Counted from the first letter of the stretch, positions 2,966 through 23,231 are shown. The stretch is DNA of 27,997 nt from a virus (IMGVR_UViG_3300010413_001137:1-27997), one strand, 5' to 3'. The notes: generated from the sequence alone by a model not told the origin. Program-made: numbers and translations.

Positions 2966-3220
2966 ATGTTCAAACGTTGTCTTCTGATTGGCGGTATCAT
3001 CCTTACATTCGCAGCGTGTACTCATGTACCGAGAACGTGTGTTCTCCAAAACCCACAAACTGGACACGAGGTAATCCTTTCTAAACAATCACCTAGTCCC
3101 TTAGCGGGTTGGTATGGAGTTGGGGTAGCGATTGTACAGAGACAAAATCAGAAGGAGCTTATTGAGGCGTACAAATCCCGTGGCTACATCATCGTCCACG
3201 AATCCAAACAAGGACTCTAA
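2966..3220 (+). CDS. Small lipoprotein
   Basis: An 84-aa protein with a clear lipoprotein signal: FKR, then a hydrophobic run ending in LTFAAC with Cys18 as the probable lipidated residue. The strong AAAAGGAGG site lies just upstream of ATG 2966. The mature part is short and polar, with QNPQTGHEV and a final GYIIVHESKQ segment resembling a small beta-alpha unit. Its position could suggest an outer spanin subunit, but it lacks the proline richness usual for that class. Its stop overlaps the next start by one base (TAATG), so it is translated with the transketolase-like gene. Confidence 0.6.
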   Translation: MFKRCLLIGGIILTFAACTHVPRTCVLQNPQTGHEVILSKQSPSPLAGWYGVGVAIVQRQNQKELIEAYKSRGYIIVHESKQGL

Positions 3221-4122
3221 TGATTTCCCAAAGAGACGCATTTTTCAACTCCCTTTTCGAACTTGCTAAAGACGATAAGCGTATTGTCGTGATATCGGCT
3301 GATATGGGGGCTCCGTCTCTAGACAGATGGAGACTGGAGCTTCCACATCAGTTTATCAATGTCGGCGTAGCCGAGCAAAATGCTGTCAATGTCGCAACTG
3401 GCATGGCCCTAGAAGGGTTCATCCCTTTTGCTTACGCCATTGGACCGTTTATCAGTCTTAGAGTGGTTGAACAGATAAAAATCGGACCTGCCATTCACAG
3501 GTTGCCAGTGACACTTGTGAGTATAGGAGCCGGTTTAAGCTATGCCAATGCGGGACCTACACACCATAACATCGAAGACCTACGCGTTATTTCGTCAATC
3601 CCAGGTGTGACGGTCATAACATGTACAGACTCTGCTATGGCATCAGTTCTTCCCGTACTAAGCGTAGAAAAGTTAAGACCTTTTTACTATAGGCTTGACA
3701 GGGAGACAAGACCTGTTCTACATCCGCGTATCTCTGTTCCAGACTTGGCGTCAGAATACCCCATTAAGAAGTACAACAATGCTCCACAATATGTCTTCTC
3801 TTGTGGAGACCTGTTTCACCTTGTTTACAAAATTTGCGGAGAGGAGAGTATTAACTGCGTAGATATTTTCCAAGTGCCTATCCTCCAAAGTCTACGCAAC
3901 AAGATTCCCAAAAAGGCCAAAATTCTTGTCCTAGAAGAAGGTATAGGGTTAAGTTCGGCTGTGCTTGAATTTAGTGCTGAGCACAATCTTGAGTGGGAGA
4001 TCTCTCAGGCATATATCGCCCACTACAGAGAGACTTATGGAGGAAGGGAACTTATGCGAGGCGACGAGTATGTAGATCGTCTAATCTTGAACTGGAGAGC
4101 CGATCGTGGAACGATATCTTGA
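3220..4122 (+). CDS. Transketolase-like, C-terminal subunit (pyrimidine-binding half)
   Basis: A 300-aa protein matching the pyrimidine-binding domain of transketolase and DXP synthase. Residues about 48-66, GVAEQNAVNVATGMALEG, hold Glu52, the residue that activates the thiamine diphosphate aminopyrimidine. GLSYANAGPTHHNIEDL follows, as in the family, and the last 110 residues form a short transketolase C-terminal domain. The ThDP-phosphate-binding half is the next gene, so the two should assemble as a split enzyme transferring a two-carbon ketol unit. Split transketolases normally place the N-terminal half first; here the order is reversed. The neighbouring sugar-transfer genes suggest action on a sugar intermediate rather than central metabolism. 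Substrate is inference. Confidence 0.85.
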   Translation: MISQRDAFFNSLFELAKDDKRIVVISADMGAPSLDRWRLELPHQFINVGVAEQNAVNVATGMALEGFIPFAYAIGPFISLRVVEQIKIGPAIHRLPVTLVSIGAGLSYANAGPTHHNIEDLRVISSIPGVTVITCTDSAMASVLPVLSVEKLRPFYYRLDRETRPVLHPRISVPDLASEYPIKKYNNAPQYVFSCGDLFHLVYKICGEESINCVDIFQVPILQSLRNKIPKKAKILVLEEGIGLSSAVLEFSAEHNLEWEISQAYIAHYRETYGGRELMRGDEYVDRLILNWRADRGTIS

Positions 4123-4930
4123 TGCAAAAGCAAAATTCATAGTTGATACGCTATACGCAATGTGCTGTAAAGCGAAAATTGGGCACATTTCGTCAGCTTG
4201 TTCCTGTGTGGATATACTTGTAGCGCTCTACTACGGAGAAACTCTACGGTTCAACCCAGCGGAAAGCGAAGACCCCAATAGGGATAGATTTATTCTATCG
4301 AAAGGTCATGCCGGAGTAGCGCTATATCCAATACTGGCTGACTTGGGATTTATCGACTTTGAAGAACTCGAGAAATTCTGTACAGCTAATGGGATACTCG
4401 GAGGACATCCGTCAGCACACATACCTGGAGTTGAGGTTGGAACAGGCTCGCTCGGATATGGTTTAGGAATCGGCAGTGGTATGGCTATGGCCGCGAAACT
4501 AAGACGCGAACATTGGATGACCTTCGTGTTAATGAGCGACGGAGAATGCTACGAAGGCTCTGTCTGGGAGGCGGCTATGTTTGCATCCCACAATCGCCTG
4601 AGTAACCTCGTAGGTATAATTGATAGGAACTTCCAAGGGGCTACAGATTTCACTGAGAACGCCATTGCCCTAGAACCGCTTGCAGACAAGTGGCTAGCAT
4701 TTGGGTGGGATGTCCAGATAGTCAACGGACACAATGTGATCGCCCTTATCGAAGTTCTAAACGCAACGCGCAATAGATACTCCAACAGACCCAAGATGAT
4801 CATTGCACATACAATAAAAGGGTTCAGGGTTGATTTTATGTGTTACGATCCAGCATGGCACGCAAGGTGCCCAGATCCATCAACAATAGGAGACTATATG
4901 AATGTGGACGATAAGTCAACGCAGAGCTAG
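4106..4930 (+). CDS. Transketolase-like, N-terminal subunit (ThDP diphosphate-binding half)
   Basis: A 274-aa protein from GTG 4106, overlapping its partner gene by 17 bases. Motifs in order: His27 in KIGHISSACS, His68 in SKGHAGVALYP, GGHPSAHIPGVEVGTGSLGY, then the ThDP/metal site SDGE with Asp145 and, 30 residues later, Asn175 in IIDRN. This is the known GDG-X(25-30)-N motif with the first Gly replaced by Ser. WEAAMFASHNRLSNLVGIIDRN closely resembles two-subunit bacterial transketolases. It ends with TAG at 4928-4930. Active-site residues visible are intact, so the pair is probably catalytic. Confidence 0.87.
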   Translation: MERYLDAKAKFIVDTLYAMCCKAKIGHISSACSCVDILVALYYGETLRFNPAESEDPNRDRFILSKGHAGVALYPILADLGFIDFEELEKFCTANGILGGHPSAHIPGVEVGTGSLGYGLGIGSGMAMAAKLRREHWMTFVLMSDGECYEGSVWEAAMFASHNRLSNLVGIIDRNFQGATDFTENAIALEPLADKWLAFGWDVQIVNGHNVIALIEVLNATRNRYSNRPKMIIAHTIKGFRVDFMCYDPAWHARCPDPSTIGDYMNVDDKSTQS

Positions 4931-5075
4931 AGAAATCCTCCAAGAAAACAGACAACTCTTTATTGATGTTCTGTCTATCCTATCTGGGAACGGCAAACTG
5001 ACAGAACAAGAGATGGACCTTTTATACAGGGAACATGAACAAGTGATCGCTAAACTCTATGAGGTCATAGAATGA
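4902..5075 (+). CDS. Small hypothetical helical protein (57 aa)
   Basis: An ORF from ATG 4902 to TGA 5073-5075. It fills the gap between the transketolase N-subunit (29-base overlap) and the glycosyltransferase (ATGA overlap). AGGAGA at 4888-4893 is a good ribosome-binding site eight bases upstream. The product is charged and almost entirely helical: a basic start with SQRRAREIL, then NGKLTEQEMDLLYREHEQ, typical of a two-helix bundle. Both-end coupling and the strong ribosome-binding site argue that it is a real gene. I do not recognise it; a small accessory subunit of a neighbouring enzyme is possible. Confidence 0.6.
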   Translation: MWTISQRRAREILQENRQLFIDVLSILSGNGKLTEQEMDLLYREHEQVIAKLYEVIE

Positions 5076-6130
5076 AACCTAAAATCCTGTTTGTCACAGA
5101 AAAGTGGCCCCAGAATAACCCGGCTCTTGGTCAATCAAGTCTCTTTGTCACACTATTTAAAAGCTTGAGCGAGACAGGACTTGCGGAAATGGCGATAGGC
5201 CATCCGGACGAATGGTGGCTACTCAGAGGGGAACCTTTTGATTACGAACTACTCACAGAAGTAGCCGTGCTAAATACACGTCCAGATATCATCATCTATT
5301 CGTGGTTAAGTTGTCATACTGGTGAACCCGAACTCTTCGGAAGATTTAATCCACAACTCAGAACCTGGCATCGTATCAAGACTATTGCTCCAACGGTCAG
5401 GCTATGTGCGATTTGGGGAGATTCTGCGTGGGCTTTATCACATCAGGCGATCAACGTCCTAGCTCCAATATTCGACCTTCATCTTACTCTCGATGTCAAG
5501 CACAATACAGTTCCAGAAGATAAATTTATGGCTCTGTGGGGTTATCCATACTCAAAAGACATTTTCACAGGAAGTCCAACAGACGCTAGGTTTATCGACG
5601 TTTCGTTTGTAGGGAGTGTGTCGAATAGACCCGAACGCCAAAAGGCGCTTTCTGAACTTAAAGAACGTGGAATAAACGTTCAGCACTTTGGCGGACAAGC
5701 AGAGGATAGACTATCTTTCGATGAGTACGCTACGATCTTTAAACAAAGCAAAATAACACTAAACTTTTCTCAAGGCACGTCAAAAGGGCGTGCCAAAGAA
5801 GCCCTATTATGCGGTGCCTGCCTTGTTGAACCGGAAACAGCAATAACAAATATCTGGGTTGAACCCGGAAAAGACTACGTCACATATAAAATGAACGACA
5901 AAGAACCAGATTACGACGATCTAGCAAAACAAATCTCGTACTATCTGGCTAATTCAGAAGACAGAATTGCCATAGCAACACATGGCTACAATACAGTTCA
6001 TGAGAAGTACAATAGCCAGATGTGGTGGGAAGCAGTCTTCACCAAACTTGGTTTCGGAGAAGAAGTCCCAGACTCAGACCAGGGCGTCAACTTCGACCAA
6101 CTAACCCTAGATAGGTTATTTACCCGATGA
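5072..6130 (+). CDS. GT-B-like glycosyltransferase (CgeB / Glyco_trans_1_2-like)
   Basis: A 352-aa protein with a GT-B arrangement. The N-terminal half begins KPKILFVTEKWPQNN and has the strand DIIIYSWLS. The C-terminal half begins near residue 170 with VSFVGSVSNRPERQKAL, then NVQHFGG, a helix YATIFKQSKITLNFS, and GRAKEALLCGACLVEPE, which corresponds to the nucleotide-sugar binding region (R.fE..acG) of CgeB-like and family 1-type enzymes. WVEPGKDYVTYKM continues the usual motif. It is likely cytoplasmic and transfers a nucleotide-activated sugar. Coupled to both neighbours through ATGA overlaps. Donor and acceptor cannot be read; capsule/LPS-type chemistry is the usual setting for this family. 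Confidence 0.75.
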   Translation: MKPKILFVTEKWPQNNPALGQSSLFVTLFKSLSETGLAEMAIGHPDEWWLLRGEPFDYELLTEVAVLNTRPDIIIYSWLSCHTGEPELFGRFNPQLRTWHRIKTIAPTVRLCAIWGDSAWALSHQAINVLAPIFDLHLTLDVKHNTVPEDKFMALWGYPYSKDIFTGSPTDARFIDVSFVGSVSNRPERQKALSELKERGINVQHFGGQAEDRLSFDEYATIFKQSKITLNFSQGTSKGRAKEALLCGACLVEPETAITNIWVEPGKDYVTYKMNDKEPDYDDLAKQISYYLANSEDRIAIATHGYNTVHEKYNSQMWWEAVFTKLGFGEEVPDSDQGVNFDQLTLDRLFTR

Positions 6131-6783
6131 TACTCAAGAAACTTAAAACTCTTGACATACAAGAGAATACCTCTGATTCCGACTGTGGAGTTCTCATGGG
6201 CTTGGCTTCTGCGATCAGTACCAAGAAACCGACCTTCGTCGAGATAGGTACTTGGAAGGGGAAGAGTGCCGCTGTGCTTGCCCACATCGCTTCGGCAAAA
6301 CAAGGAGTGGTGTATACTGTTGATCACTTCATGGGGAACCCTGGGACAAAACGTGACGAGGTCGCCGAACGTATAGACCTATTTGCCATCTTTAGGCACA
6401 ACATGCGCCAACTGGGTTACTGGCAGACTGTTGTCAAGCCCCTTGTGATGGATTCAGAATCAGCGAGTCGATTGTTCAAGAACAAAAGCGTAGATTTAGT
6501 CTTCATAGACGCAGGTCATTGGTATAGCGATGTTATCCATGACGTCTCTCTCTGGCTCCCGAAGATTAAAAAAGGTGGAGTTATCTGTGGACATGATTGT
6601 CAAGAGTATTATCTTGACATCAAAGAAGAAGCCGACGAGATGTATACACAAGTGGATTGTGCAGTGAGTAAACAACTAAACCGACAGATTCACTTTGGAG
6701 TAGTCAAAGCGGTATATGACATGTTCGGAGACGATTATAAAATATTCAAACCGACATCTGTCTGGGGAGCTAGAGTGACATGA
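6127..6783 (+). CDS. Class I SAM-dependent methyltransferase (Methyltransf_24-like)
   Basis: A complete 218-aa methyltransferase. The SAM-binding loop is EIGTWKGKSA at residues 39-48, the acidic end of strand 2 is YTVDHFMG, and strand 4 is DLVFIDAGHWYSDV followed by a helix and KKGGVICGHD. The DAGH and GHD motifs match Methyltransf_24/TylF-like O-methyltransferases that act on sugars and natural products, some of them metal-dependent. It is paralogous to the partial gene at 1-510 but keeps the motifs that copy has lost. Coupled by ATGA to the glycosyltransferase before it and to the second methyltransferase after it, so O-methylation of a transferred sugar is a reasonable inference. Confidence 0.8.
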   Translation: MILKKLKTLDIQENTSDSDCGVLMGLASAISTKKPTFVEIGTWKGKSAAVLAHIASAKQGVVYTVDHFMGNPGTKRDEVAERIDLFAIFRHNMRQLGYWQTVVKPLVMDSESASRLFKNKSVDLVFIDAGHWYSDVIHDVSLWLPKIKKGGVICGHDCQEYYLDIKEEADEMYTQVDCAVSKQLNRQIHFGVVKAVYDMFGDDYKIFKPTSVWGARVT

Positions 6784-7538
6784 ACTGGACTCGAGTAGAA
6801 GAACTCCAACGTCTAATGCTACTCACTAAAGAATTTGATTATCCAGATCCGTGGTTCCTGCGAGAGTTTGTAGGCGTGATTAATTTGTTTAAGCCGTCAG
6901 TATTAATTGAGACTGGAACATATAAAGGCGGCATGATCAAGTTTATTTCTAGGCTGTTTCCAGACCTCATGATCTACTCGTGTGATGTAATAAAGCAAGT
7001 ACAGGATGTAATCACTGAGTTCGAAGATAATCCAAACATCACCATCGAGCAATGCAACAGTCTCGACTTCCTCAAACATCTACGCGAGGATGGTGAACAT
7101 TATATTGGACCCTTCCCGTTCTTCTTCCTAGACGCACATTCTGCGGTGGTGCCGGACTACCCCACAGATGAAAACCTTGAACCTCTAGCCGAGGAAATAA
7201 AAGAAGTACTTAAGTACGGATCTAGTATAGCGTGCATCCACGATTTTGAAGTGCCGAATATACCCGAGTTTGGACACGGCTCAAATGACATGTATCTCAA
7301 AAAACAAATCAAGATTAGTCTTGAAGTGATTAAAGACACAATCAGACACGAGAATGTAGCTATCTATTTCCCCATGTTGCCCCAACGTCTGTTGTGCAAA
7401 GACAAAGTGAACTGGCGTAGCCTCTTTGATTTACGCGGAAGAGTATATCTTCTCATAAATCCCAAACCCGCTGATATAGAACTCCTCCGCCCACTAGAGC
7501 AATTTGGAGTTCTAAGGAGGTTCACATGGCCCGTTTAA
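6780..7538 (+). CDS. Class I methyltransferase-like protein
   Basis: A 252-aa protein. LIETGTYKGGMIKFIS at about residues 40-56 is a SAM-binding glycine loop. MIYSCDV follows as strand 2, then FPFFFLDAHSAV and a long helix EPLAEEIKEVL ending in SIACIHDFEVPN. The DAH and HDF pair is typical of methyltransferases from LPS, rhamnan and capsule gene clusters. It shares the architecture but little sequence with the preceding gene. ATGA overlap at the start; at its 3' end AAGGAGG (7514-7520) leads into a tiny ORF. No membrane segment or signal peptide. Substrate unknown; a sugar or lipid-linked glycan is inferred from context. Confidence 0.7.
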   Translation: MNWTRVEELQRLMLLTKEFDYPDPWFLREFVGVINLFKPSVLIETGTYKGGMIKFISRLFPDLMIYSCDVIKQVQDVITEFEDNPNITIEQCNSLDFLKHLREDGEHYIGPFPFFFLDAHSAVVPDYPTDENLEPLAEEIKEVLKYGSSIACIHDFEVPNIPEFGHGSNDMYLKKQIKISLEVIKDTIRHENVAIYFPMLPQRLLCKDKVNWRSLFDLRGRVYLLINPKPADIELLRPLEQFGVLRRFTWPV

Positions 7539-7585
7539 TCTTCCCGTTTCTAACTAGAAAGGAGTCTGACAAGTGGATCGCGTAA
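7526..7585 (+). CDS. Possible 19-aa leader-like mini-ORF
   Basis: AAGGAGG at 7514-7520 sits at ideal distance from ATG 7526, yet that frame encodes only 19 residues (MARLIFPFLTRK then a polar end) before TAA 7583-7585. It ends inside the next gene, whose GTG start is at 7573 with its own AAAGGAG at 7558-7564. A ribosome terminating at 7585 would be placed to restart at 7573. It may be a coupling or leader peptide, or a fortuitous ORF behind a strong ribosome-binding site. Confidence 0.3.
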   Translation: MARLIFPFLTRKESDKWIA

Positions 7586-8568
7586 GCATACTTTTACCGA
7601 CGATGGATCGGCCTACCTTCATGGAAAGAGTACTTAAGTACTATTCCAACTTAAAGTTCACCGGAACGATCCTAGTGGCGGATAGTTCAAAAGATAATTC
7701 GACAGAGCGTTTAGTCGCACAGCACACAGACCTAAATACTGTGTATCGTCATTATCCAAAAGAGACGTTTAGAAACGAACTAGTGGCGATGAACGCCATC
7801 ATGTCCTATGCGAATACGCCCTATACGATATTCCAAGGAGATGATGACTTCATCTCCATTCGTGGAGTAACTGAGTGTGCGAACTTTCTCGATGGGGAAC
7901 CTGCGTTCACCATGGCTGGCGGAGGACAGATTCGGTTTCAGGTCCAGAATGAGCTTTTCAATATTGACGCTGTTCGGCTTCCGCTAGACCACTCGTCCGA
8001 TGACGCGATTGAGCGCTTTAAGACCTATATGCGGTCGGGCATGTCCACGATGTACTTCCTGCATAGAACAAATGTGATGCGTGATATCCTACAGTACTCC
8101 GAGGATGCTACTCTGCCAGCACTTTGCACTGAAATCCTTTTGTGTTGTCTGGCTGTACTGTCAGGTAGAGCCAAATCACTTCCGTTTATAACAAGCTTTC
8201 AGCAGGGTGAACATGCACAAACTATCTTTCCTAGGACCAACAGAAAACTTGAGCTGCCTACATTCTACCGCATAATGCTGCGGGATGACTGGCCCGACCA
8301 GTTTCGTCTCTTTAAGAGCATTGTCGTGGGAAGGATCGACGATATTGTGGACGACTTCGCTCTTGCAGAACAGACATTCGACGCAGAAATGGTTTACAGA
8401 ACAGTCGTTTTACTCGATTCTCAGATGCGGACGAATTATCCGTCATTCTCTCCAGACTTACAACGATGGGACGCTTATCAGCAGGTCATGGGAAGACAGA
8501 TCTCGATGGATTTTCCGAGAAACGAAAAGTTAGAAGAGGTAACCCGCCCTGTTTTGGAGGTTCTGTGA
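7573..8568 (+). CDS. GT2-like (GT-A) glycosyltransferase, copy 1
   Basis: A 331-aa protein from GTG 7573. The N-terminus VSILLPTMDRP is the first strand and loop of the GT-A nucleotide-binding fold, followed by GTILVADSSKDNS and the metal site FQGDDDF with Asp90-92. An acceptor-side region follows with YFLHRTNVMRDIL and TEILLCCLAVLSGRAKSLP, also recognisable in the second copy at 12188-13246 (YVHRIEVWREM; GGEVLPCCISVMSGRIKDV). The pair thus forms a paralogous set resembling the TIGR00180 glycosyltransferase group. No membrane helix is seen. It probably transfers a nucleotide-sugar-derived residue; specificity unknown. Stop and next start overlap as GTGA. Confidence 0.72.
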   Translation: MDRVSILLPTMDRPTFMERVLKYYSNLKFTGTILVADSSKDNSTERLVAQHTDLNTVYRHYPKETFRNELVAMNAIMSYANTPYTIFQGDDDFISIRGVTECANFLDGEPAFTMAGGGQIRFQVQNELFNIDAVRLPLDHSSDDAIERFKTYMRSGMSTMYFLHRTNVMRDILQYSEDATLPALCTEILLCCLAVLSGRAKSLPFITSFQQGEHAQTIFPRTNRKLELPTFYRIMLRDDWPDQFRLFKSIVVGRIDDIVDDFALAEQTFDAEMVYRTVVLLDSQMRTNYPSFSPDLQRWDAYQQVMGRQISMDFPRNEKLEEVTRPVLEVL

Positions 8569-9932
8569 GAACGTTACTCATTAACTGTCCGATTCCAGAC
8601 TTTGTCGATAATAGAGAATTTATGCCACCTCCGTCCATTCTCTATTTGGCTGGGGTACTTGACGCTCACAGAATTGAGGTTAGAATACTAGACCTGAATG
8701 TTACACGAGCTAAGAAAACGGACGACCAAAAGGCCATAGCTTCGGTCTGCTCTGAGTTTGACCCAGAGTTAATTGGGATAGGCTGTTTATTTAGTGGACA
8801 GTTTCCTTCGGTGCTAGACATCGCTCATCAAGTTAAACAACTTACTGATGATAAAGCTAAAATAATTGTAGGAGGTATCCATCCGACAATCTTTCATTCC
8901 GAAATCTTGGAGAACGTTCCAGAGATAGATTATGTGGCTCTTGGAGAAGGTGAACCACAGCTCTTGGCTCTGGCAACAGGATGGATGCCGTTTTCAGAAG
9001 GGCTAGCGTGGCGTTCAAAAGGCACTATTCAGGTCAACCCAAAAGCCAAGTTGAGTTCCTATATAACACAGCTTGACAATCTTCCGTTCCCAGCTTACCA
9101 CTTGATCGATCTAGACGATTACAGTCAAGATTTGTCACACTGGCATAATCCAAAAGGATTAGAATTCAGCGTTAACATTCCTATTCTCTCGAGTAGAAGT
9201 TGCCCAAGAAGCTGTAACTTCTGCTCGATGCATTTAGTGATGGGAAAAGGAATTCGGTTTCGTTCACCCGCTGATGTCGTAGACGAAATCGAGTGGCTTT
9301 ATAGGGAGTACGAATGTAATCGTTTCGCCTTCCAAGACGATAATCTAACTCTGAGCAAAAGCCACATCGAAGGTATCTGTCACGAGATCCTACACAGAGA
9401 GTTGGATATTCAATGGGAACCCAACAACGGACTGATGGTTAAGACGCTCACTTCAGACATAATCGACTTGATGGTTGAGTCAGGTATGATCAGAGCGTTC
9501 CTTGCTATAGAAAGCGGTAACGGGTACATCCGCAACAGAGTGATGGGAAAAGACCTAGATAAGGAGGATATCTACAGAGTTGCCTTCTACCTCAAAGAGA
9601 AGCATCCTCAAGTATTTGTACGCGGCTTGTTCATCATGGGGATGCCAGAAGATACTCCTGAGACGCTAGACGATACTTACGACATGATAAAGGAACTTCC
9701 CCTCGACACTTTTAGCATATCGAACATCATGCCCTTTCCCGGCACTGAAGTTTTCAACCAAGCCGTAAAAGATGACATCTTGATAAATACAACGACTACC
9801 GACATGTGGAAAGAGTCCCGCATGGACTATAACGACAACAAGACTTTCTATATCAAGCCATACGATATGACCGAGGAACAACTTCACGAGTATCGTCAGA
9901 AGTTCGACGAACTAAAGGCGACCTACAAATGA
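8565..9932 (+). CDS. B12-binding-domain radical SAM protein 1
   Basis: The reading frame is open from 8466, but GTG 8565 is chosen: TTGGAGG at 8554-8560 precedes it, it forms the GTGA overlap with the previous stop, and the protein then starts RTLLINCPIPDF, the usual first strand of the cobalamin-binding domain. Product is 455 aa. Residues 1-140 form the B12-binding-like Rossmann domain with IIVGGIHPT and DYVALGEGEP. The radical SAM core starts with CPRSCNFC (Cys213, 217, 220), ligating the 4Fe-4S cluster. AIESGN and GLFIMGMPEDT are typical later core motifs. Such enzymes (class B methylases and BchE-like) methylate or rearrange unactivated carbons. Product unknown. Confidence 0.87.
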   Translation: MRTLLINCPIPDFVDNREFMPPPSILYLAGVLDAHRIEVRILDLNVTRAKKTDDQKAIASVCSEFDPELIGIGCLFSGQFPSVLDIAHQVKQLTDDKAKIIVGGIHPTIFHSEILENVPEIDYVALGEGEPQLLALATGWMPFSEGLAWRSKGTIQVNPKAKLSSYITQLDNLPFPAYHLIDLDDYSQDLSHWHNPKGLEFSVNIPILSSRSCPRSCNFCSMHLVMGKGIRFRSPADVVDEIEWLYREYECNRFAFQDDNLTLSKSHIEGICHEILHRELDIQWEPNNGLMVKTLTSDIIDLMVESGMIRAFLAIESGNGYIRNRVMGKDLDKEDIYRVAFYLKEKHPQVFVRGLFIMGMPEDTPETLDDTYDMIKELPLDTFSISNIMPFPGTEVFNQAVKDDILINTTTTDMWKESRMDYNDNKTFYIKPYDMTEEQLHEYRQKFDELKATYK

Positions 9933-10771
9933 TAAACGAAGTCCCAGACAAATTGTACGTGACGCCGTACTACAAAAATAAATATGAGTATGAGGCCAGC
10001 GTGCATAAACTCAGAACAGATGCACATAAAGCCTACGACGCCGCATTCCACAGAGATGTCGATACGGCAGCCAATATACTCTTGGCGTGGTCCCTGAGAT
10101 GTTCCGAAGCTGTCAACTTTGAAGCAAAGCTTCATCTAGTCTGGATGGGACATCTGTTTCTAGAAGCATCTCTACTTATGCCAGAGGACGAGTGGAATAG
10201 TGGGGTCTTTGCACCGTGGGTTGACCTTGTTTACCGAGAGGCAGTCCAAAGCGTATATTGGGATGATGACAACAAAGGCTCTTGGGGGATTCTAGGGGCG
10301 ATTCTGACAGACCTTGTCACTAAAGGTGCCTACTTCAGCCATATCGACAGGCTCCTTAGACACATGTCCCAGTCTTGGGAAGACGACGGAACTTTAGTCC
10401 ACGAAGTCAAAAGGACAAACTCGGGTATATGGTACTCCTATTTTAGTCTAGCCCCGATGTTCAGGGCGTGTGATCTTTTAAGTTACGAAGGAGTCGGTCC
10501 AGAAATGTTACTCGCTCCTCTAAATTTTTTATGGACGTACACTCGCTTCCCTAATAAATGGCCGTACAGACTTCCACGAGGATTCATGGGCTGGTTCTGG
10601 AAGTTACTGTATCCATGCTCTGATAAACTGGAAATGCCGAATCCCAAAGACTGGCCTGCGAATCTGTTATTAGAGGCAGGGAAGAAACTCGGTATTCAAA
10701 AATGGATAGACTACGCTGATTTACCTTTGAACGATGGTATTCATATCTTTAGGGAGTATAGCTACTCATGA
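9929..10771 (+). CDS. Alginate-lyase-like (alpha/alpha toroid) protein, likely non-canonical
   Basis: A 280-aa protein without signal peptide, rich in Trp/Tyr helices. Two blocks resemble polysaccharide lyase family 5 (alginate lyase). WDDDNKGSWGILGAI matches the NHGTW block, with Asn115 but Lys116 where the catalytic His normally sits. DGTLVHEVKRTNSGIWYSYF matches the DGS...L.R....YS.FN block, with Arg162 and Tyr169 seven apart, as Arg239 and Tyr246 are in Sphingomonas A1-III; the Asn-to-Arg distance (47) is also close. The rest is divergent and shorter than the roughly 350-aa lyases. It sits between two radical SAM genes with ATGA overlaps, so it may process or bind a sugar polymer in the cytoplasm. 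Homology is by eye and catalysis uncertain. Confidence 0.5.
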   Translation: MINEVPDKLYVTPYYKNKYEYEASVHKLRTDAHKAYDAAFHRDVDTAANILLAWSLRCSEAVNFEAKLHLVWMGHLFLEASLLMPEDEWNSGVFAPWVDLVYREAVQSVYWDDDNKGSWGILGAILTDLVTKGAYFSHIDRLLRHMSQSWEDDGTLVHEVKRTNSGIWYSYFSLAPMFRACDLLSYEGVGPEMLLAPLNFLWTYTRFPNKWPYRLPRGFMGWFWKLLYPCSDKLEMPNPKDWPANLLLEAGKKLGIQKWIDYADLPLNDGIHIFREYSYS

Positions 10772-12186
10772 ACGTTGTATTCGTGCGTCCTAACGCCAAA
10801 AAGAGGCTGTATCAAGAGTTGGATTCATTTAATATGACAGCCATAGAGCCACCCTTGTGGTGTGCTCTGTTGGCTGGTTATATGCGGAACCGCGGAATTA
10901 CATGTGATATCCTTGATGCAGAGGCAGAGAACCTTACACCCTCCCAAGTCAGCGCACAACTCATGGAGATGAAACCAGAGTATGTAGTAATAGTTGTATC
11001 TGGCTCAAATCCGTCAGCCTCTACTATGCAAATGGTTGGAGTGCGACCTATCATAGAGCGAATGCAGACCTTCGTCCCAAAAGCCCGTACTATAGTTTAC
11101 GGCCTTCATCCGTCCGCGCTACCCGAAGAGACTTTGTTACTAACACTGGCTGACTATGTATGCGTGGGAGAGGGATTTGAGACACTGGCACACTTCTTCA
11201 CTTCACCGAACTCGGATTCGACTAGACTTCTAAAAACACAGAATCTGGTTGATCTAAGCTGTCTTCCAGAACCCGCTTGGGATATGGTGGATATAAGTTT
11301 GTACCGAGCACATAACTGGCAGTGTTTCGGAGATATCCACAACAGACAACCTTACGGGGTAATCTATACTAGTTTCGGATGCCCATTTAGGTGTGATTTC
11401 TGCGTTATTCATACGATGTTTTGCAATGAACGCAGTATTCGTTTCCGAAACCCAAGGCTACTCATTCCAGAGATAGCTGATCTCGCCAGTCGCGGCGTAC
11501 GGAACATCCGCATTATTGATGAGATGTTTACTCTCAACCAAGAACATGTAGAAAAGTTTTGCTGTCTAGTCCGAACAATGTTCGGCGATGACTTGAACTT
11601 TTGGGCGTATGGAAGAGTCGGTACCCTTACACCAGAGTTACTCAAACTAATGCGGCAAGCAGGTATAAGGTGGTTAGGAGTAGGTTTCGAGTCTGGTTCT
11701 CAAAAAGTACTTGATGGTTCAATAAAGAATATAAAGTTAGAGCAGGCGTTAAAGACTGCTGACATGATGCGGGACGCTGACATTTGTATTAACGCTAATT
11801 GGATATATGGTCTTCCGCGTGATAATTATAATTCTATGCGAGAAACTCTTGATTTTTCCTTGCAAATTAATGCGGAATGGGCTAATATATATTCTTGCAT
11901 GGCCTATCCAGGCTCAAAACTCTATGAAGAGGCCAAGGCCAATAATCGGTATAGTATTCCGACAGAATACGAAGCCTATTCTCAGTATTCATATGAATGT
12001 TGTCCAATGGGAACCGAGCACTTAACACCGGCTGAAGTGCTCAGATTCAGAGATGAGGCGTTTATGACATATTATACCCATCCAAACTACTTGGGGATGA
12101 TTAAAAGAAAGTTTGGACAGGAGACGGTAGACTATATTAATACCATAACCCAAGTAAAATTAAAACGAAGACTGCTTGGAGATTGA
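10768..12186 (+). CDS. B12-binding-domain radical SAM protein 2
   Basis: A 472-aa protein from ATG 10768 (ATGA overlap). Residues 1-150 form a cobalamin-binding-like domain: NVVFVRPN, LLAGYMRNRGITCDILDAEAE, IVYGLHPSA and DYVCVGEGFE. The radical SAM core begins CPFRCDFC (Cys205, 209, 212) and contains LGVGFESGSQ and ANWIYGLPRDN. Architecture matches the BchE/P-methylase-like class. It is a distant paralogue of the gene at 8565-9932 rather than a recent copy. The C-terminal part beyond residue 400 (about 70 residues) lies outside the core and might contact the substrate. With the first radical SAM protein it could carry out successive C-methylations or a methylation and a rearrangement. Confidence 0.87.
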   Translation: MNVVFVRPNAKKRLYQELDSFNMTAIEPPLWCALLAGYMRNRGITCDILDAEAENLTPSQVSAQLMEMKPEYVVIVVSGSNPSASTMQMVGVRPIIERMQTFVPKARTIVYGLHPSALPEETLLLTLADYVCVGEGFETLAHFFTSPNSDSTRLLKTQNLVDLSCLPEPAWDMVDISLYRAHNWQCFGDIHNRQPYGVIYTSFGCPFRCDFCVIHTMFCNERSIRFRNPRLLIPEIADLASRGVRNIRIIDEMFTLNQEHVEKFCCLVRTMFGDDLNFWAYGRVGTLTPELLKLMRQAGIRWLGVGFESGSQKVLDGSIKNIKLEQALKTADMMRDADICINANWIYGLPRDNYNSMRETLDFSLQINAEWANIYSCMAYPGSKLYEEAKANNRYSIPTEYEAYSQYSYECCPMGTEHLTPAEVLRFRDEAFMTYYTHPNYLGMIKRKFGQETVDYINTITQVKLKRRLLGD

Positions 12187-12187
12187 T

Positions 12188-13246
12188 GTGGCTACTAAAG
12201 AACAGAAACTATCCATAATAATCCCTACCAAGAATAGACCCAGTCGACTTAAACAGTCGCTCCAGTACTATATAAAGAAGCGCTTCAAGGGAACATTACT
12301 TATAGTAGACGCAAGCACTGGGCGTAATATAAAAGTAGTAGATGACCTGATTATTCAGGCTCGCGAAGCGGGACTGAACATTCAGATTGGTCACTATGGA
12401 AGACATAAACATTATGGAGAGGCCATCAAACTAGCCGCTGCCTACGTAGAGACTCCCTATGTTATGTACTGCCGAGACGACGATACAGCAATCCCACGCG
12501 CTCTCATCAAGTGCATAGAGTTTCTAGATATGAATCCTAACTATATAGCAGCAAGCGGCCCAAGAGGGACGTGGGTGCGTAAAGGGAATTATAATCTTGT
12601 CCAATATACGCGCTGTTTAGAAGTGGAAACTGACTACATCACAGACAGGCTGTCGCTCTACCTTCGCACCAGACTCTGCACGACCCATTATGTACATAGA
12701 ATAGAAGTGTGGAGGGAGATGTTCAAATACGCAACTCTAATGCCCAATAAATGGCTTGGAGGTGAGGTCTTACCGTGTTGCATATCAGTCATGAGTGGAA
12801 GGATCAAAGATGTTCTGACCAACTCTAGCTATCATGCTATGATTCGTTCTCACGGCCCTGACTCGCATGTTCAAAATCTAAACTTCCTAAATGTCCTCCA
12901 CAGCGAGGACTACATCAAATCCGCTCGAGTTCTACGCCGCGTAGTTTTGAAGTATCTCGTCGATGGGGGACTCGACAGCGAGACAGCCGGGGGCTTCTAT
13001 GACCGAGAGATGTGGCTAAGCACTCTCATCCTACTCATGAACAAATTTGTGGAGCGTTATCCAAACTTAAAACCGCTAATAGATGAATATAGCCAACGAT
13101 TGGATAATTATCCGTTCGAATGGAAATTCGACTCGTATCCTTCCTCTTGCGTCACAGATCCTTCTATAAATACACTACTCAAGGGAGAGCTGTACTATGG
13201 CAAAAGTAATCCACTTAAGCCGCAATTCTGTTCGCGAAGTTCTTGA
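12188..13246 (+). CDS. GT2-like (GT-A) glycosyltransferase, copy 2
   Basis: The frame also has a TTG at 12176, but GTG 12188 is preferred because TTGGAG (12176-12181) makes a well-spaced ribosome-binding site for it. Product is 352 aa: LSIIIPTKNRPSRLKQSL, then GTLLIVDAST, and the metal site YCRDDDT with Asp97-99. The mid region (YVHRIEVWREM, GEVLPCCISVMSGR) parallels copy 1 at 7573-8568, but overall divergence is high, so they probably act on different donors or acceptors. It closes the symmetric GT-rSAM-toroid-rSAM-GT block. Its last 50 bases overlap the small gene that follows. Confidence 0.72.
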   Translation: MATKEQKLSIIIPTKNRPSRLKQSLQYYIKKRFKGTLLIVDASTGRNIKVVDDLIIQAREAGLNIQIGHYGRHKHYGEAIKLAAAYVETPYVMYCRDDDTAIPRALIKCIEFLDMNPNYIAASGPRGTWVRKGNYNLVQYTRCLEVETDYITDRLSLYLRTRLCTTHYVHRIEVWREMFKYATLMPNKWLGGEVLPCCISVMSGRIKDVLTNSSYHAMIRSHGPDSHVQNLNFLNVLHSEDYIKSARVLRRVVLKYLVDGGLDSETAGGFYDREMWLSTLILLMNKFVERYPNLKPLIDEYSQRLDNYPFEWKFDSYPSSCVTDPSINTLLKGELYYGKSNPLKPQFCSRSS

Positions 13247-13457
13247 ACGCTTAACGAGTATAGAAGGCAGTATCGAAGAAATATGTGCCTTCTACTCAGT
13301 CAGGGTAAAAAATGGCGCGCGCTATTATAGAATCATCACTGGAAACTTGGATGATCCTTTTAGCTGGTATGGAGTAATAGTGGGACTGGCTCACGACAGA
13401 TTTCTGCATGGTACAGGGATTCCACTGGATGAGCTATCCGATGAGGATATGGAATAA
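13197..13457 (+). CDS. Small hypothetical protein (86 aa)
   Basis: ATG 13197 lies inside the 3' end of the glycosyltransferase gene and is preceded by AAGGGAGAG at good spacing. The product is soluble and acidic at its C-terminus (LDELSDEDME), with an N-terminal amphipathic helix VREVLERLTSIEGSIEEICAFY and a strand-rich middle (KNGARYYRIITG). It is the last gene of the plus-strand operon. I do not recognise a family and there is no membrane segment or metal motif. Confidence 0.6.
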   Translation: MAKVIHLSRNSVREVLERLTSIEGSIEEICAFYSVRVKNGARYYRIITGNLDDPFSWYGVIVGLAHDRFLHGTGIPLDELSDEDME

Positions 13458-13728: not shown

Positions 13729-13986
13729 TTAATCCTTACCTTTGCCCCACTCACCTTTTCGGAGTTCGTTTACGGCTGTCCAAAGATTGTCCATCTCTTC
13801 ACGTGTATCCTTCCTGTTGGCGAAATGACTTCCTAACAGTATCTCTCTGATTATCTTCTCGATTTCCTGACACTTCTTTTCTACTCCTACAAATGTCCGC
13901 CAAAAGAGAAAAACAGCTACCCCTAATAAAGTAGTCAATATCCCCAGGATAGTTCCGATATGTTCGGCAAGGTCAACACTAGTCAC
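13729..13986 (-). CDS. Small membrane protein with coiled-coil tail
   Basis: GTG 13986 is preferred over a TTG 24 bases upstream: GAGGA lies eight bases before it and it overlaps the preceding gene's TAG, the usual coupling here. The 85-aa product has a single strong TM segment, about residues 10-30 (IGTILGILTTLLGVAVFLFW), then a charged helical tail (KKCQEIEKIIREILLGS and EEMDNLWTAVNELRKG) that could form a coiled coil. The topology fits a class III-type holin, inner-membrane spanin or immunity protein. None can be chosen from sequence. It is next to another single-TM protein. Confidence 0.6.
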   Translation of the reverse strand: MTSVDLAEHIGTILGILTTLLGVAVFLFWRTFVGVEKKCQEIEKIIREILLGSHFANRKDTREEMDNLWTAVNELRKGEWGKGKD

Positions 13987-14533
13987 AACGCATATCCTCG
14001 AAAACGTCAAAGGCTCCAGATTGATACCAAGGGGTCTCTACTTCCTGGTGAATATTACGCCAAAGGATGTGGGTTCTATAAATGTGTCGAATCTTGAATT
14101 TACGATTCTCTAGGACCTTTCCTCTAGGCAGAGTAAGTGTACCAGTTTCGATTGTATAGTCTAAGTGTCCGTCCTTTTTCTGCGAATGAAGTGAACCTTC
14201 ATGTTCTTGAAAGGACACAATCCAGTCCGCACCTGGATATTCCACAACTAGTTGAACCGCATGAACAACAGGACCTTCTATGGGGTCTTTAAATTCAATT
14301 CTCCAATCGACACCGCAACCAGGTAGGAATACCGTTGCGCCATGAGCTGGTTCGGCAGTAGCAGTTGCATCTTCAAAGATTTTAACAGGCCAAAAAGACC
14401 CACCAAAGAAGAATATAGCAACGGCAGCAAGGACGATAAGAACCGAGAAAGTCATCACCCTTAGTCTGCCGTTACCATACCGCCTTTTGACCTCCTCTAC
14501 ATCAGTTATCAATCGTGCTAGTTTTTGTTCCAT
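13979..14533 (-). CDS. Single-TM membrane-anchored protein
   Basis: A 184-aa protein: a short cytoplasmic helix (MEQKLARLITDVEEVKRRYG), one TM segment at about residues 26-47 (VMTFSVLIVLAAVAIFFFGG), then about 135 residues expected in the periplasm. The outer part is beta-rich: CGVDWRIEFKDPIEGPVV, AVQLVVEYPGADWIVSF, LDYTIETGTLTLPRGKV. This looks like a small beta-sandwich anchored in the inner membrane, but I cannot assign a family. Upstream neighbour ends nine bases before its start. Superinfection exclusion or envelope sensing would fit the topology; that is a guess. Confidence 0.65.
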   Translation of the reverse strand: MEQKLARLITDVEEVKRRYGNGRLRVMTFSVLIVLAAVAIFFFGGSFWPVKIFEDATATAEPAHGATVFLPGCGVDWRIEFKDPIEGPVVHAVQLVVEYPGADWIVSFQEHEGSLHSQKKDGHLDYTIETGTLTLPRGKVLENRKFKIRHIYRTHILWRNIHQEVETPWYQSGAFDVFEDMRCD

Positions 14534-14541
14534 AACGCCCC

Positions 14542-14931
14542 CTAATAAACAAATTGCCCCCTACATACCATAGGTAGATCGAACTGGTCTTTCAGGAAGC
14601 GTCCTACATCAAAGGCATTAAACTCCTTACACGAAGTAAGCAGCACCCTGACGCGTTGTTCAGGCTCTCCCTTTCTATTTGTGTAACTATAGGAGTTACC
14701 CATAATCCCAGATTCGTGAAGCATCACAAAAACTTCGGTGATGCTATGGTAAACTAAAGTCCCTTCCCCGCCTTTGCCTTTCACTGGAAAATCCCGTACA
14801 ACCGGGTCCTCAAAAACCGTCATTCCCACGTAGGCTACAGTATCAAGGAGGACTTCCTTTAGCCGCTCGCCAGTGACCCAACCGTCGAAGCACCAGCCCG
14901 CTACGTATTCGCGTTCGCCAAGGTTCATCAT
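14542..14931 (-). CDS. Hypothetical protein with faint AdoMet-decarboxylase-like pattern
   Basis: A 129-aa soluble protein starting MMNLGEREYVAGW. The motif order resembles bacterial AdoMet decarboxylase (SpeD/SpeH): YVAGWCFDGWV then a helix, VGMTVFEDPVVRDFP, a glycine segment, a strand TLVYHSITEVFVMLHES where the family has ...ESHLTIHTWPE, and LLTSCKEFNAFDVGRFL where it has FTCG....P..AL.YL. The Cys matches, but the Ser-His pair that makes the pyruvoyl group is not in register, so it would be inactive or only a fold relative. An extra 20-residue insertion precedes the last block. This is a by-eye suggestion with low confidence; the CDS itself is well supported by context. Confidence 0.55.
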   Translation of the reverse strand: MMNLGEREYVAGWCFDGWVTGERLKEVLLDTVAYVGMTVFEDPVVRDFPVKGKGGEGTLVYHSITEVFVMLHESGIMGNSYSYTNRKGEPEQRVRVLLTSCKEFNAFDVGRFLKDQFDLPMVCRGQFVY

Positions 14932-14949
14932 TTCTCATACCTAATCTCC

Positions 14950-15348
14950 TCATTCTTCTAAGTTAAGACGTAAAAGAGTATCAAGCACTGGAGCAGGTGG
15001 AGTAGGCAAGTCAGACAATTTGCGTTTCCTCACGGCCATAATAAGAGTTCGAACGTATACTCTCCACTGCTCTCTGAAAGCCAAGAACTCAGGGTGAGTG
15101 AATTGACGACCTAAAGCTTCCAACATCACTAGGCTAAGAATATCATCTTTAACACGTTGTCTGATATCGGCTAAAGCTGAGCTACTGCGGTGTCTGTAAA
15201 ATCTTCCTTGCTTGTTACAGCACCAGTCTATTGGCCTTTGCTGGATTCTAGGGAGGATGTCGTCGGGTATTTGGACGCAACTCTCATCAACGGCTGTATC
15301 TAAAATCTCGCGTACTCTTCCACCTGATATCCTAGCAAACTTACCCAT
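14950..15348 (-). CDS. Fibre-associated hypothetical protein (possible chaperone)
   Basis: A 132-aa protein whose ATG overlaps the stop of the glycine-rich fibre gene (TAATG at 15348). It starts MGKFARISGGRVREILDT, a small beta-hairpin start also seen in phage proteins lying just behind fibre genes, then CCNKQGRFYRHRSSSALA and a long helical C-terminal half rich in Arg (LAFREQWRVYVRTLIMAVRKRK) ending PTPPAPVLDTLLRL. Position directly behind the adhesin suggests a fibre assembly or capping role, as for tail fibre chaperones. No recognisable domain confirms it. Confidence 0.5.
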   Translation of the reverse strand: MGKFARISGGRVREILDTAVDESCVQIPDDILPRIQQRPIDWCCNKQGRFYRHRSSSALADIRQRVKDDILSLVMLEALGRQFTHPEFLAFREQWRVYVRTLIMAVRKRKLSDLPTPPAPVLDTLLRLNLEE

Positions 15349-16382
15349 TAGTATGCCACCTTTATATAGCCATCAGCTCCGTTTCCGCCGCTCTGTTGAG
15401 TCGAACCTCCTCCACCTCCACCGCTGCCATACCCAGTACCGGGATTTCCATTGTTCCCTGTCGTTCCACCACTTCCTCCGAGCCCCATAGCACACCCAGC
15501 ATTGCCGCCGTCACCACCTGTTGTCACCCCCGCAGCACTCTCTCCCTCTTCTCCTGACGAACTAGCAAGCTTATAGGTATTCGGAGCAGTGGCCGCACCA
15601 CCGGCTCCACCGTAGTTACTACCACCGTAACTTTCACCTCCGTATCCACCAGTAGCAGATACTAACGAAGAAAACTTTGAGGCGGTACCATTTGACCCCT
15701 CGTCCATTCCTTCTCCGTGGGTGCCTCCAGTTCCAACTACAATAGTGTAACTCACACCCTTAGTCAACTCAACGACAGCAGTACAGCACTCTGCTCCGCC
15801 TCCACCTCCACCTCCATCTACATTATCTCCACCAGCTCCTCCTCCCCCTCCGCCTACAAGCGTAACTAAGTGGGGAGCAGTCTTCTTCGCTGTAAAGGTA
15901 TAAGAGCCAGCAGTCGTATAAGTCTCTACTCCAGAATCGCCTTCCTGAATACCCAAACCTCCCAAGAAGCGTAGATCTGTAATGTTGTCTCCCCACATAG
16001 TTGTGGCGTTAGCAGGTACATATATACCCGCAATAGGATAAAAGCCAGTCGTCAAAGTGGGGTACGCCGGTGAAGCCGCCGCTGTTCCGGTTTTCGCTTG
16101 GACTGTGCCAGCGTCATTCATCTCAATAACGTCTTTTCGAGGATTAGTAGGATTAGCCGCGGTTATGCTTACGCTTGTCGGGTTAACAGCCGAAAGCGTT
16201 CTAGCTCCAGTATTAAAGATGTATCCGCCATTTACATAGACTTTCATTGACGGAATAGTCATAGGCTCCACGAGAAACCAAGTAGCATAACGCTCTATGA
16301 CAGCGAAACAGTTTTCTATATTAATCTGGTAGCTCGTACCATCTTGTGTTGTCCTATCCGGTAAATTCCAAATTCCACCCAT
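15348..16382 (-). CDS. Glycine-rich tail fibre / adhesin, copy 2
   Basis: A 344-aa protein. Residues 1-150 form a non-repetitive N-terminal part (MGGIWNLPDRTTQDGTSYQI; PSMKVYVNGGYIFNTGA; DNITDLRFLGG) probably attaching to the tail. From about residue 155, TTAGSYTFTA leads into LVTLVGGGGGGAGG and then about 170 residues with repeated GG and GGGG blocks, the phage glycine-rich domain type that may pack as polyglycine helices and tip receptor contacts. The N-terminal part also appears in shortened form in the larger fibre upstream (DLTDLRCL versus ITDLRFL). ATG 16382 has AGGAGA upstream. Probably the receptor-contacting element; the ligand is unknown. Confidence 0.75.
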   Translation of the reverse strand: MGGIWNLPDRTTQDGTSYQINIENCFAVIERYATWFLVEPMTIPSMKVYVNGGYIFNTGARTLSAVNPTSVSITAANPTNPRKDVIEMNDAGTVQAKTGTAAASPAYPTLTTGFYPIAGIYVPANATTMWGDNITDLRFLGGLGIQEGDSGVETYTTAGSYTFTAKKTAPHLVTLVGGGGGGAGGDNVDGGGGGGGAECCTAVVELTKGVSYTIVVGTGGTHGEGMDEGSNGTASKFSSLVSATGGYGGESYGGSNYGGAGGAATAPNTYKLASSSGEEGESAAGVTTGGDGGNAGCAMGLGGSGGTTGNNGNPGTGYGSGGGGGGSTQQSGGNGADGYIKVAY

Positions 16383-16391
16383 ACTTATCTC

Positions 16392-17981
16392 CTATCTAAT
16401 CCAACAGACACCTGCCCAGCCTGTTGCCCCATTATAACCCCCATCACCCGGAGCGCCCCCAGAACCCCCTCCTCCATACTCAGAGCCAGCCGAAGCAGAA
16501 CCGCCAGTCCCGAACCCGGCACCCGCATTTCCCCCCTTCCCCTTCAAACCGACATCTCCAGCGTTTCCGTTAATCCCCGCAGAATACATGACCAACGTTG
16601 TCATAGGGGACGATACGAGGTTATTGAGAACGTCACCAGTGCCTCCATACGCTCCGTAACTGATCCCGCCTCTTCCGCCCCACGCGTATAGAGTAACTCT
16701 ACTTGATCCCGACCCAGAGTGACGCAGAAAAGAAGTAGTACCCCCATCTGAACCATCGCTGTTAGCGGAACCTTTTGAACCGCCTGCACCTAGGGTAACG
16801 TCATAAATATCGTTTTCAGACAATTGAACCAAGTAGGAATAGAGTGGGGACCCACCTCCGCCACCCCCTCCAGTTGCCGTACCAATACTAGTTCCGCCAG
16901 CCCCTCCACCACCACCTCCGACTAACCGAACGAGATACCACCCATCCTGAGGTACTGTAAAAGAGCCGGTTGATGTGAAGTTCTGATAACTCGCGGAGGA
17001 GAAAATAGGCTGTCCGACTTTATCAAGACAACGTAGATCGGTGAGATCCTCTCCAGATTGTGCGAACTGGTTAGAACTCATTCTCAACCTCGCTAGCGGT
17101 ACTACTGCGCCCCCCTCAGAAGCGGCTGGCACGTCTGGCAAATCTGGCTCGTCAGGATACTGGGAAGTTTCCCCTTCTACAAACCCAGCCGCCCCAGTCT
17201 CTTGATTTAAGTATACCATGTGATACGCCCAACCTTTGCGGGGCCAACTTGTGAAGTTGTCGAGAGTAGTAAAAACATGCTGAGTTCCTGTAGACATGAT
17301 TGTACGAGAGCTTTCGTCGTACCACATCCCAGAAGCAACAGTAACGTAAAACCAAGTTGGATATTGTCTGGCGGTCACGTTAAAGTCACTTGCTCTGACT
17401 AGACTCTTGAAACGTTCGTCTATGGTATCTTTTGTTATATTGTTCCCTGAATCTTGTAGAGTATGAAAGGCAGTCCCAACATCGCCCTTATTCTTTCCCA
17501 AACAGAGTAGAAAGTAGGCTCCCCGTGTGGCTGTTTGGGGCGTGAATACGCAATACTTGAGCGCCCATTGGTTAACAGTCCACGATGAAAATAGAGAAGA
17601 GGTCTTATAGCCGAACTCAGGTGCATATACCTGTAGCTGCACTTGTTTCGTGGCGGATGACGATCTAAGGTAACACAACCAAATGTATGTTTGGTTAGCC
17701 TTCAATCTGATTCTGTTACCAAAGAAATCCGAGTACTGATATAGGAAAATATCGTCAATTGCCGCTCCTCCACCAGTAACACTAATCGTAGCTGTCCCCC
17801 AAAAGGTATTCCCCGAGAACCCAGAAGTTCTATAGTCACTCAGAGACGCTGTTCCTGCCGAAACAACAAGACTCCAAGGCTTAATAGACGGTTGCTTAAA
17901 AGCAGCGTTGCACAACGGATTGTAATGTGTTGCCAATGTGCCGCACTTCATGTAGGGGTTAACCCATATTTCTGAACTCAC
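16392..17981 (-). CDS. Glycine-rich tail fibre / adhesin, copy 1
   Basis: A 529-aa protein from GTG 17981. The first 190 residues look like a beta-sandwich carbohydrate-binding-type module (TATISVTGGGAAIDDIFLYQ; RLKANQTYIWLCYLRSS; QVQLQVYAPEF). Residues 200-330 form a linker with GEDLTDLRCLDKVG, and from about residue 335 NFTSTGSFTVPQDGWYLVRL leads into a glycine-rich region with many GG and GGGGG runs and the end TGWAGVCWIR. Its TAG stop overlaps the ribosome-binding site of the downstream paralogue and is in frame with it. Binding of a surface glycan is a reasonable expectation for the N-terminal module, but is inference. Confidence 0.75.
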   Translation of the reverse strand: MSSEIWVNPYMKCGTLATHYNPLCNAAFKQPSIKPWSLVVSAGTASLSDYRTSGFSGNTFWGTATISVTGGGAAIDDIFLYQYSDFFGNRIRLKANQTYIWLCYLRSSSATKQVQLQVYAPEFGYKTSSLFSSWTVNQWALKYCVFTPQTATRGAYFLLCLGKNKGDVGTAFHTLQDSGNNITKDTIDERFKSLVRASDFNVTARQYPTWFYVTVASGMWYDESSRTIMSTGTQHVFTTLDNFTSWPRKGWAYHMVYLNQETGAAGFVEGETSQYPDEPDLPDVPAASEGGAVVPLARLRMSSNQFAQSGEDLTDLRCLDKVGQPIFSSASYQNFTSTGSFTVPQDGWYLVRLVGGGGGGAGGTSIGTATGGGGGGGSPLYSYLVQLSENDIYDVTLGAGGSKGSANSDGSDGGTTSFLRHSGSGSSRVTLYAWGGRGGISYGAYGGTGDVLNNLVSSPMTTLVMYSAGINGNAGDVGLKGKGGNAGAGFGTGGSASAGSEYGGGGSGGAPGDGGYNGATGWAGVCWIR

Positions 17982-18003
17982 TTAACTTACTCCCCTAGAG
18001 TTG

Positions 18004-21867: not shown

Positions 21868-22255
21868 GTCTATAAAAGCCCTCTATCTGACGAATCCAAT
21901 TATAATGGTTGTATGGAACTATACAGGTATTCACACCCTCCATCACATGCAACATAAAACCCTTCTTAACCACTATTGCCAGATGAGCCGGTCTGATATG
22001 TATAACATCCCAAGGTTTCTCTTTTCCTGCCTCAACTTGAACCCACTGCTGAATTTGTTCTTTGAGGCGAGTATATGCCTGTTTCAAGTCTTTCGTTGCA
22101 ACTTCCTCATACGGAGAAAGGTCTATCCCTATAGTATTAAAGGCCGAGACAACAAGCCCCCAACAGTCCCATCCGATTTGTGTTCTACCGTTCTCCAGAT
22201 AAGGAACTGGAATCCGCACCGCCGCGTTAGCAAAATCTAGAATAAGCCTGTCCAT
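21845..22255 (-). CDS. NlpC/P60-family tail peptidase (gpK-like)
   Basis: A 136-aa NlpC/P60 fold peptidase: catalytic Cys31 in GWDCWGLV, His91 in PAHLAIVV, and a following polar residue region at HVMEG (His103). Order and spacing match NlpC/P60 domains, here near the minimum length. In siphovirus tails this domain is at the position of lambda gpK, directly before J, and probably locally cleaves peptidoglycan during entry. The overlap with the J-like gene and the DUF1833 gene on either side confirms the tail-tip setting. An assembly role is also possible for homologues of gpK. Confidence 0.9.
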   Translation of the reverse strand: MDRLILDFANAAVRIPVPYLENGRTQIGWDCWGLVVSAFNTIGIDLSPYEEVATKDLKQAYTRLKEQIQQWVQVEAGKEKPWDVIHIRPAHLAIVVKKGFMLHVMEGVNTCIVPYNHYNWIRQIEGFYRHAGLSGR

Positions 22256-23222: not shown

Positions 23223-23231
23223 TACTCACTC

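Follow-up and report, generated by a model that had tools for sequence, protein, structure and literature searches.

A probable phage-borne glycan island in which a B12-binding radical SAM enzyme accompanies a split transketolase-like enzyme

The DNA analysed here (the window) is the entire IMG/VR record IMGVR_UViG_3300010413_001137, 27,997 bases long and itself a fragment of a phage genome. It carries an island of glycan genes whose products would probably make a carbon-modified, O-methylated sugar and attach it; the likeliest acceptor is the surface of the host. The conserved core of this gene set is a B12-binding radical S-adenosylmethionine (SAM) enzyme, rSAM2, together with a thiamine diphosphate (ThDP) enzyme. 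Phage glycan islands with radical SAM genes are already known; what is new is the recurrent pairing of ThDP and B12/radical SAM enzymes, and its repeated uptake by uncultivated phages as implied by the rSAM2 tree. An initial annotation had singled out a cassette of five genes arranged mirror-wise around an alginate-lyase-like protein (here called the toroid). A match to a C1 protease of the window led us to a sister phage, G582 (also L220; IMGVR_UViG_3300010413_000017, 73.9 kb), with which the island could be compared. The genes that carry the argument are the following.

3220..4122, plus strand: tktC, pyrimidine-domain half of a split transketolase-like ThDP enzyme, with the catalytic-glutamate motif GVAEQ
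4106..4930, plus strand: tktN, the diphosphate-binding half, with SDG...N (first G of GDG replaced) vs GDG...N in G582
7573..8568, plus strand: GT2a, GT-A glycosyltransferase of TIGR04440, DDD at residues 90-92, without an orthologue in G582
8565..9932, plus strand: rSAM1, B12-binding radical SAM enzyme, CxxxCxxC at 213-220, GTG start overlapping the GT2a stop
9929..10771, plus strand: toroid, PL5/PL38-like all-helical protein, DNK where G582 has NNH, R162 and Y169 kept
10768..12186, plus strand: rSAM2, B12-binding radical SAM enzyme, CxxxCxxC at 205-212, of a family with YRAHNWQCFGD...TSxGCPxxCxFC
12188..13246, plus strand: GT2b, GT-A glycosyltransferase of TIGR04440, DDD at residues 97-99, 47-48% identical to both GT2 enzymes of G582

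The five genes from GT2a to GT2b have intact frames, and their families and coordinates agree with the earlier description. In both radical SAM enzymes the B12-binding and Radical_SAM domains score above gathering and the cluster motif is intact (CPRSCNFC in rSAM1, CPFRCDFC in rSAM2); at 25% mutual identity they are as distantly related as had been claimed. Their best scores fall among HpnJ, BchE, AprD4 and other enzymes that combine a Rossmann B12-type domain with a radical SAM domain, but far under the equivalog cut-offs. In NCBIfam, rSAM2 reaches 123 bits for HpnJ (cut-off 577.6), 119 for BchE and 76 for AprD4 (cut-off 500), while rSAM1 reaches 115 bits for HpnJ and 183 for the Sden_1168 radical SAM P-methyltransferase (cut-off 575). 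The Transket_pyr and Transketolase_N halves of the ThDP enzyme are each above gathering and lie in adjacent genes that overlap at 4106-4122.

A profile built from nine rSAM2 members gave 121 confirmed matches in the genomes of bacteria and archaea, plus at least 90 in uncultivated viral contigs, and 80 loci of each kind were kept for locus analyses. Clustering of 2,700 flanking open reading frames, combined with Pfam, revealed constant neighbours of rSAM2, namely an NAD epimerase, a DegT aminotransferase, a GHMP kinase, a nucleotidyltransferase, RmlC and a ThDP enzyme. The last of these takes E1-like, split transketolase or acetolactate-synthase-like forms. Before filtering (flanks up to 10 kb, loci with at least 3 kb on each side), a ThDP enzyme stood beside rSAM2 in 55 of 60 loci from viruses and 47 of 57 from bacteria, mostly less than 4 kb away; in the window the distance is about 6 kb, with the split transketolase upstream. 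When rSAM2 proteins more than 85% identical were collapsed and 5 kb was required on each side, the enzyme was still found within 10 kb in 39 of 42 viral and 21 of 27 bacterial loci. Among other B12/radical SAM (rSAM1-like) genes, three of eight had such a neighbour (Fisher p 0.004), a small control in which detection was also harder, as the ThDP profiles were derived from the rSAM2 loci themselves. Our paper searches found no description of a pairing of ThDP with B12/radical SAM enzymes.

Cassettes in which rSAM2 lies near a ThDP enzyme and sugar-nucleotide genes occur in Paramagnetospirillum, Azospirillum, Marinomonas, Bdellovibrionota and other bacteria as well as in viral contigs such as L119. 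They differ from the window in that no toroid and no rSAM1 orthologue were found in them, and a clear TIGR04440 GT2 stands beside rSAM2 only in L022. The phage contig L119 (L119:4926-13340) encodes a GT2, a split acetolactate-synthase-like ThDP enzyme, a GHMP kinase, a SPASM-type radical SAM protein, a cupin and rSAM2, followed by two methyltransferases, a GT2 and then structural-looking genes.

Relatives of rSAM2 in viral contigs are about 40-45% identical to it, and phage hallmark genes were confirmed on several of these contigs. In the tree, viral and bacterial members are intermixed: well-supported branches require at least four changes and parsimony requires nine, although the window's own branch is long and its exact placement unsure. 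The tree implies that rSAM2 entered phages several times. Two viral members carry insertions. One (L011:946-3357) has an in-frame intein (PF14890) directly before the third cluster cysteine, and the other (L013:10001-11702) an insert that has intein-like ends (C...N|C) and sits immediately ahead of the second. The two inserts differ, yet both split the [4Fe-4S] motif, and each would use a cluster cysteine as its +1 residue.

The comparison with G582 places the island firmly in a phage. Synteny between the two genomes spans the tape measure, J, the fibres and three small genes, and resumes beyond the far side of the island (J 64% identical, tape measure 53%). This synteny on both sides rules out that the window is host DNA beside a prophage. 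Within the island, G582 has the toroid (51%), the GT-B glycosyltransferase (49%), tktC (43%), tktN (47%), GT2 (46-48%) and rSAM2 (44%), at the same site by the tail-fibre module and with the same flanking genes. The order differs, however, running GT-B, tktC, GT2, rSAM2, tktN, GT2; farther left lie RmlC and the toroid (joined by a 4-base overlap), a GHMP kinase, a nucleoside triphosphate (NTP) transferase and an epimerase. Counterparts of rSAM1, GT2a and the second methyltransferase-like gene (MT2) were not found in G582. An overlapping set in the same place in G582 shows that these genes belong to the phage and are partly conserved, unlike their mirror order. Gene identities, iron-sulfur motifs, coupling, phage location, conservation in G582 and the association of rSAM2 with ThDP enzymes are matters of observation.

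The remaining features of the window are listed below.

1..510, plus strand: Methyltransf_24 methyltransferase truncated by the contig edge, 32% identical to the 6127-6783 gene and 62% to its positional counterpart in G582
5072..6130, plus strand: GT-B glycosyltransferase (Glyco_trans_1_2), 49% identity in G582
6127..6783, plus strand: MT24, Methyltransf_24 methyltransferase (domain match)
6780..7538, plus strand: MT2, the second of the methyltransferase-like proteins, resembling CmcI/rhamnosyl O-methyltransferase only weakly (E 0.08, under the cut-off)
13197..13457, plus strand: protein of 86 aa marking the island's right edge, 60% identity in G582
13979..27891, minus strand: tail module of the phage, with two fibres, a lambda-J-like tip, the tape measure and minor tail proteins; converges on the island and is syntenic with G582

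The right half of the window is a siphophage-type tail module, and the left half a plus-strand run converging on it; the island occupies a variable position with lysis-side genes on one side and the tail-fibre module on the other. The GT-B enzyme, two methyltransferases and split transketolase that had been reported upstream of the five genes were indeed found, at 3220-7538. The tight coupling of the five was likewise borne out, with 4-base overlaps at GT2a/rSAM1, rSAM1/toroid and toroid/rSAM2 and an immediate restart at rSAM2/GT2b. All five are present as a run, but the coupling does not begin with GT2a: it extends upstream to 5072, giving eight genes (5072-13246) in which the GT-B gene, MT24 and MT2 are joined by 4-base overlaps and GT2a follows 34 bases later.

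The mirror arrangement, by which the cassette had initially been described, was not supported as a functional unit. When the eight-gene run was shuffled by type, a five-gene palindrome arose in 6% (GT-B kept apart) to 13% (all glycosyltransferases alike) of cases. Given this frequency and the different order in G582, we reject a functional role for the symmetry, which is probably incidental and by itself weak evidence. Nor is a unit of just these five genes supported, as G582 is without rSAM1 and GT2a; what is conserved is rSAM2 with the ThDP enzyme. No locus with the five-gene set was found among the 80 rSAM2 genome loci or among six bacterial TIGR04440 loci. Recent duplication of either pair is ruled out by identities of 27% (GT2) and 25% (rSAM), and the pairs are paralogues in a wide sense.

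The outer genes are paralogous GT-A enzymes, as had been proposed. Both score above the curated TIGR04440 cut-off of 70 bits (GT2a 148, GT2b 123) and both have the acidic metal-binding motif DDD. In the case of GT2b, the start is most likely the GTG at 12188 and not the TTG at 12176, the former placing the motif at residues 97-99. The two GT2 enzymes of G582 are 47-48% identical to GT2b vs 26-29% to GT2a. As for rSAM1, its closest relatives (42% and 39% identity, among 399 Pseudomonadota genomes) both lie in glycan clusters, which also contain C-methyltransferases and GT2 enzymes; in other phages we found just one weak viral match (26%).

The central protein is a relative of alginate lyases by its PF05426 match (E 2.5e-8, 34.1 bits against a gathering score of 22.2), but the histidine of the lyase motif is replaced by lysine. 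In the toroid of G582, an NNHGSW and a KR...Y stretch reproduce the pattern of the PL5/PL38 alginate and polymannuronate lyases; in the window the Asn-His/Arg/Tyr set is incomplete, with Arg and Tyr kept in both phages. The toroid further differs from these lyases by its low similarity and by the lack of a signal peptide in its sequence. The window protein may be inactive or altered, or its fold may serve some different purpose related to glycans. Searches of 40 other viral records with rSAM2 did not find the toroid, it was not convincingly present in 299 Pseudomonadota genomes, and it has no close relative among 50,697 phage records; these empty searches at first favoured a protein unique to the window contig, which the 51% identical copy in G582 overturned. 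A single-sequence structure prediction (pLDDT 48) gave no significant Foldseek match and was not used.

We infer the substrate, the reactions, the order of steps and the target from the gene families and their constant neighbourhood. A GHMP kinase, a nucleotidyltransferase, an epimerase and RmlC, as seen in G582, would yield an activated sugar. The split transketolase-type enzyme would transfer a two-carbon unit to this sugar or to a precursor of it. Next, rSAM2 would alter that carbon skeleton by radical chemistry, through rearrangement or C-methylation, the latter being our assumption. Further methyl groups would come from rSAM1 and the methyltransferases, and three glycosyltransferases would attach the sugar. 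The likeliest target would be the surface polysaccharide of the infected cell, where a changed receptor would block competing phages or re-adsorption. The idea of a glycan pathway carried by a tailed phage between lysis and fibre genes, put forward in the initial annotation, is supported by the occurrence of both rSAM families in bacterial surface-glycan clusters and of an overlapping set in G582. More tentatively, it is conceivable that ThDP and B12-dependent radical SAM enzymes jointly build an undescribed carbon skeleton (branched, chain-extended, C-methylated), a pathway spread in bacterial surface-glycan loci and repeatedly acquired by phages, which re-coats infected cells.

The main competing explanation is that the phage puts the sugar on tail or capsid proteins of its own virion, to shield or tune them. 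The island adjoins the tail-fibre and J genes in both the window and G582, mycobacteriophages glycosylate their capsid and tail tube with glycosyltransferases of their own (PMC12363180), and one bacterial TIGR04440 glycosyltransferase that we examined sits in a pseudaminic-acid cluster of the flagellin-glycosylating kind, whose target is a protein. We nevertheless consider virion glycosylation unlikely: relatives of rSAM2 and of the ThDP, GHMP and DegT proteins lie in glycan loci of bacteria where phage tail genes are absent, and nothing within the window points to a protein acceptor.

Several observations weigh against a modified host-surface glycan as the product. A fixed pathway using all the genes is not demonstrated by the comparison, as rSAM1, GT2a and MT2 are without counterparts in G582, and the sugar-activating genes are absent from the window, which is a partial record. 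Because the contig starts inside a Methyltransf_24 gene that in G582 neighbours the toroid, the GHMP kinase, NTP transferase, epimerase and RmlC may lie just beyond its left edge. For bacteria alone, the link between rSAM2 and ThDP enzymes is less strong when compared with the small control (p 0.08). Finally, the use of B12 by rSAM2 is predicted, and its closest solved fold is that of AprD4, a sugar diol dehydratase.

This last point opens the option that rSAM2 is an AprD4-type radical diol dehydratase or other deoxygenase, which would yield a deoxysugar without methyl transfer or B12 use. AprD4, whose substrate is an aminosugar, is the best Foldseek match of the rSAM2 model (pTM 0.74; E 2e-17), ahead of TsrM, MgmA, CysS and OxsB, with TokK also matched, and it is the best profile match in the PDB as well. 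Tyr216 matters in AprD4. The corresponding column (6fd2 numbering) holds Asn or His in rSAM2, the cluster motif is CX3CX2C against CX3CX3C, and the NCBIfam AprD4 score lies under those for HpnJ and BchE, so that we judge an AprD4-type reaction to be rather improbable.

Still less probable is that the island is passenger cargo, acquired as a fragment of a host's polysaccharide locus and lacking a fixed phage function. Its content is indeed fluid (between the two phages, rSAM1, GT2a and MT2 are confined to the window, and RmlC, the GHMP kinase and others to G582), and several entries of rSAM2 into phages would fit. Against this, every reading frame is intact, the coupling is tight, and the toroid, GT-B, split transketolase, rSAM2 and GT2 are kept at 43-51% at the same site despite reordering. 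T-even phages have glycosyltransferases that act on DNA. That the sugar is placed on phage DNA bases is very improbable here, for although phage glycosyltransferases can act on DNA (PMC7029224), the window (as distinct from the rest of the phage genome) has no modified-nucleotide genes, the glycosyltransferases match surface- and protein-glycan families, and the neighbours match nucleotide-sugar pathways.

Phages are known to change the glycans on their hosts' surfaces using a single enzyme or a small number of them. The lineage described here seems to bring its own radical chemistry together with a carbon-transferring enzyme for such a glycan. The statement that no named phage system has this set is right insofar as tblastn found no close relative of rSAM2 (only about 24% similarity) among the 50,697 phage records; comparable radical SAM glycan islands have, however, been described. 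Pelagimyophages carry glycosyltransferases, lipopolysaccharide-type sugar genes and radical SAM cassettes in the hypervariable host-recognition region by their tail fibres, read by the authors as a means of preventing coinfection through an altered surface (PMC7029224); these are SAR11 myophages, and the text does not mention a transketolase. The named Campylobacter phages CP220, CPt10 and IBB_35 likewise have radical SAM and carbohydrate genes, but the radical SAM genes are scattered through the genome (PMC3322345) and, by tblastn against the phage records, do not belong to the rSAM2 family. The repeated pairing of ThDP and B12/radical SAM enzymes in bacteria and uncultivated phages would mark a sugar pathway missed in cultured phages, one whose chemistry is open to testing because few genes are involved.

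Outside the island, the papain-family (C1) protease at 1189-1974 is 75% identical to its counterpart in G582; Burkholderia phage FLC9 and an uncultured phage of 595 kb have versions with 38-39% identity. The endonuclease/exonuclease/phosphatase-family protein at 2285-2953 is 28% identical in G582, with no match among named phages. Within the tail module, paralogues occur at 23795-26539 (23795/24188/25193) and at 22701-23783 (22701/23232), and similar repeats are present in G582.

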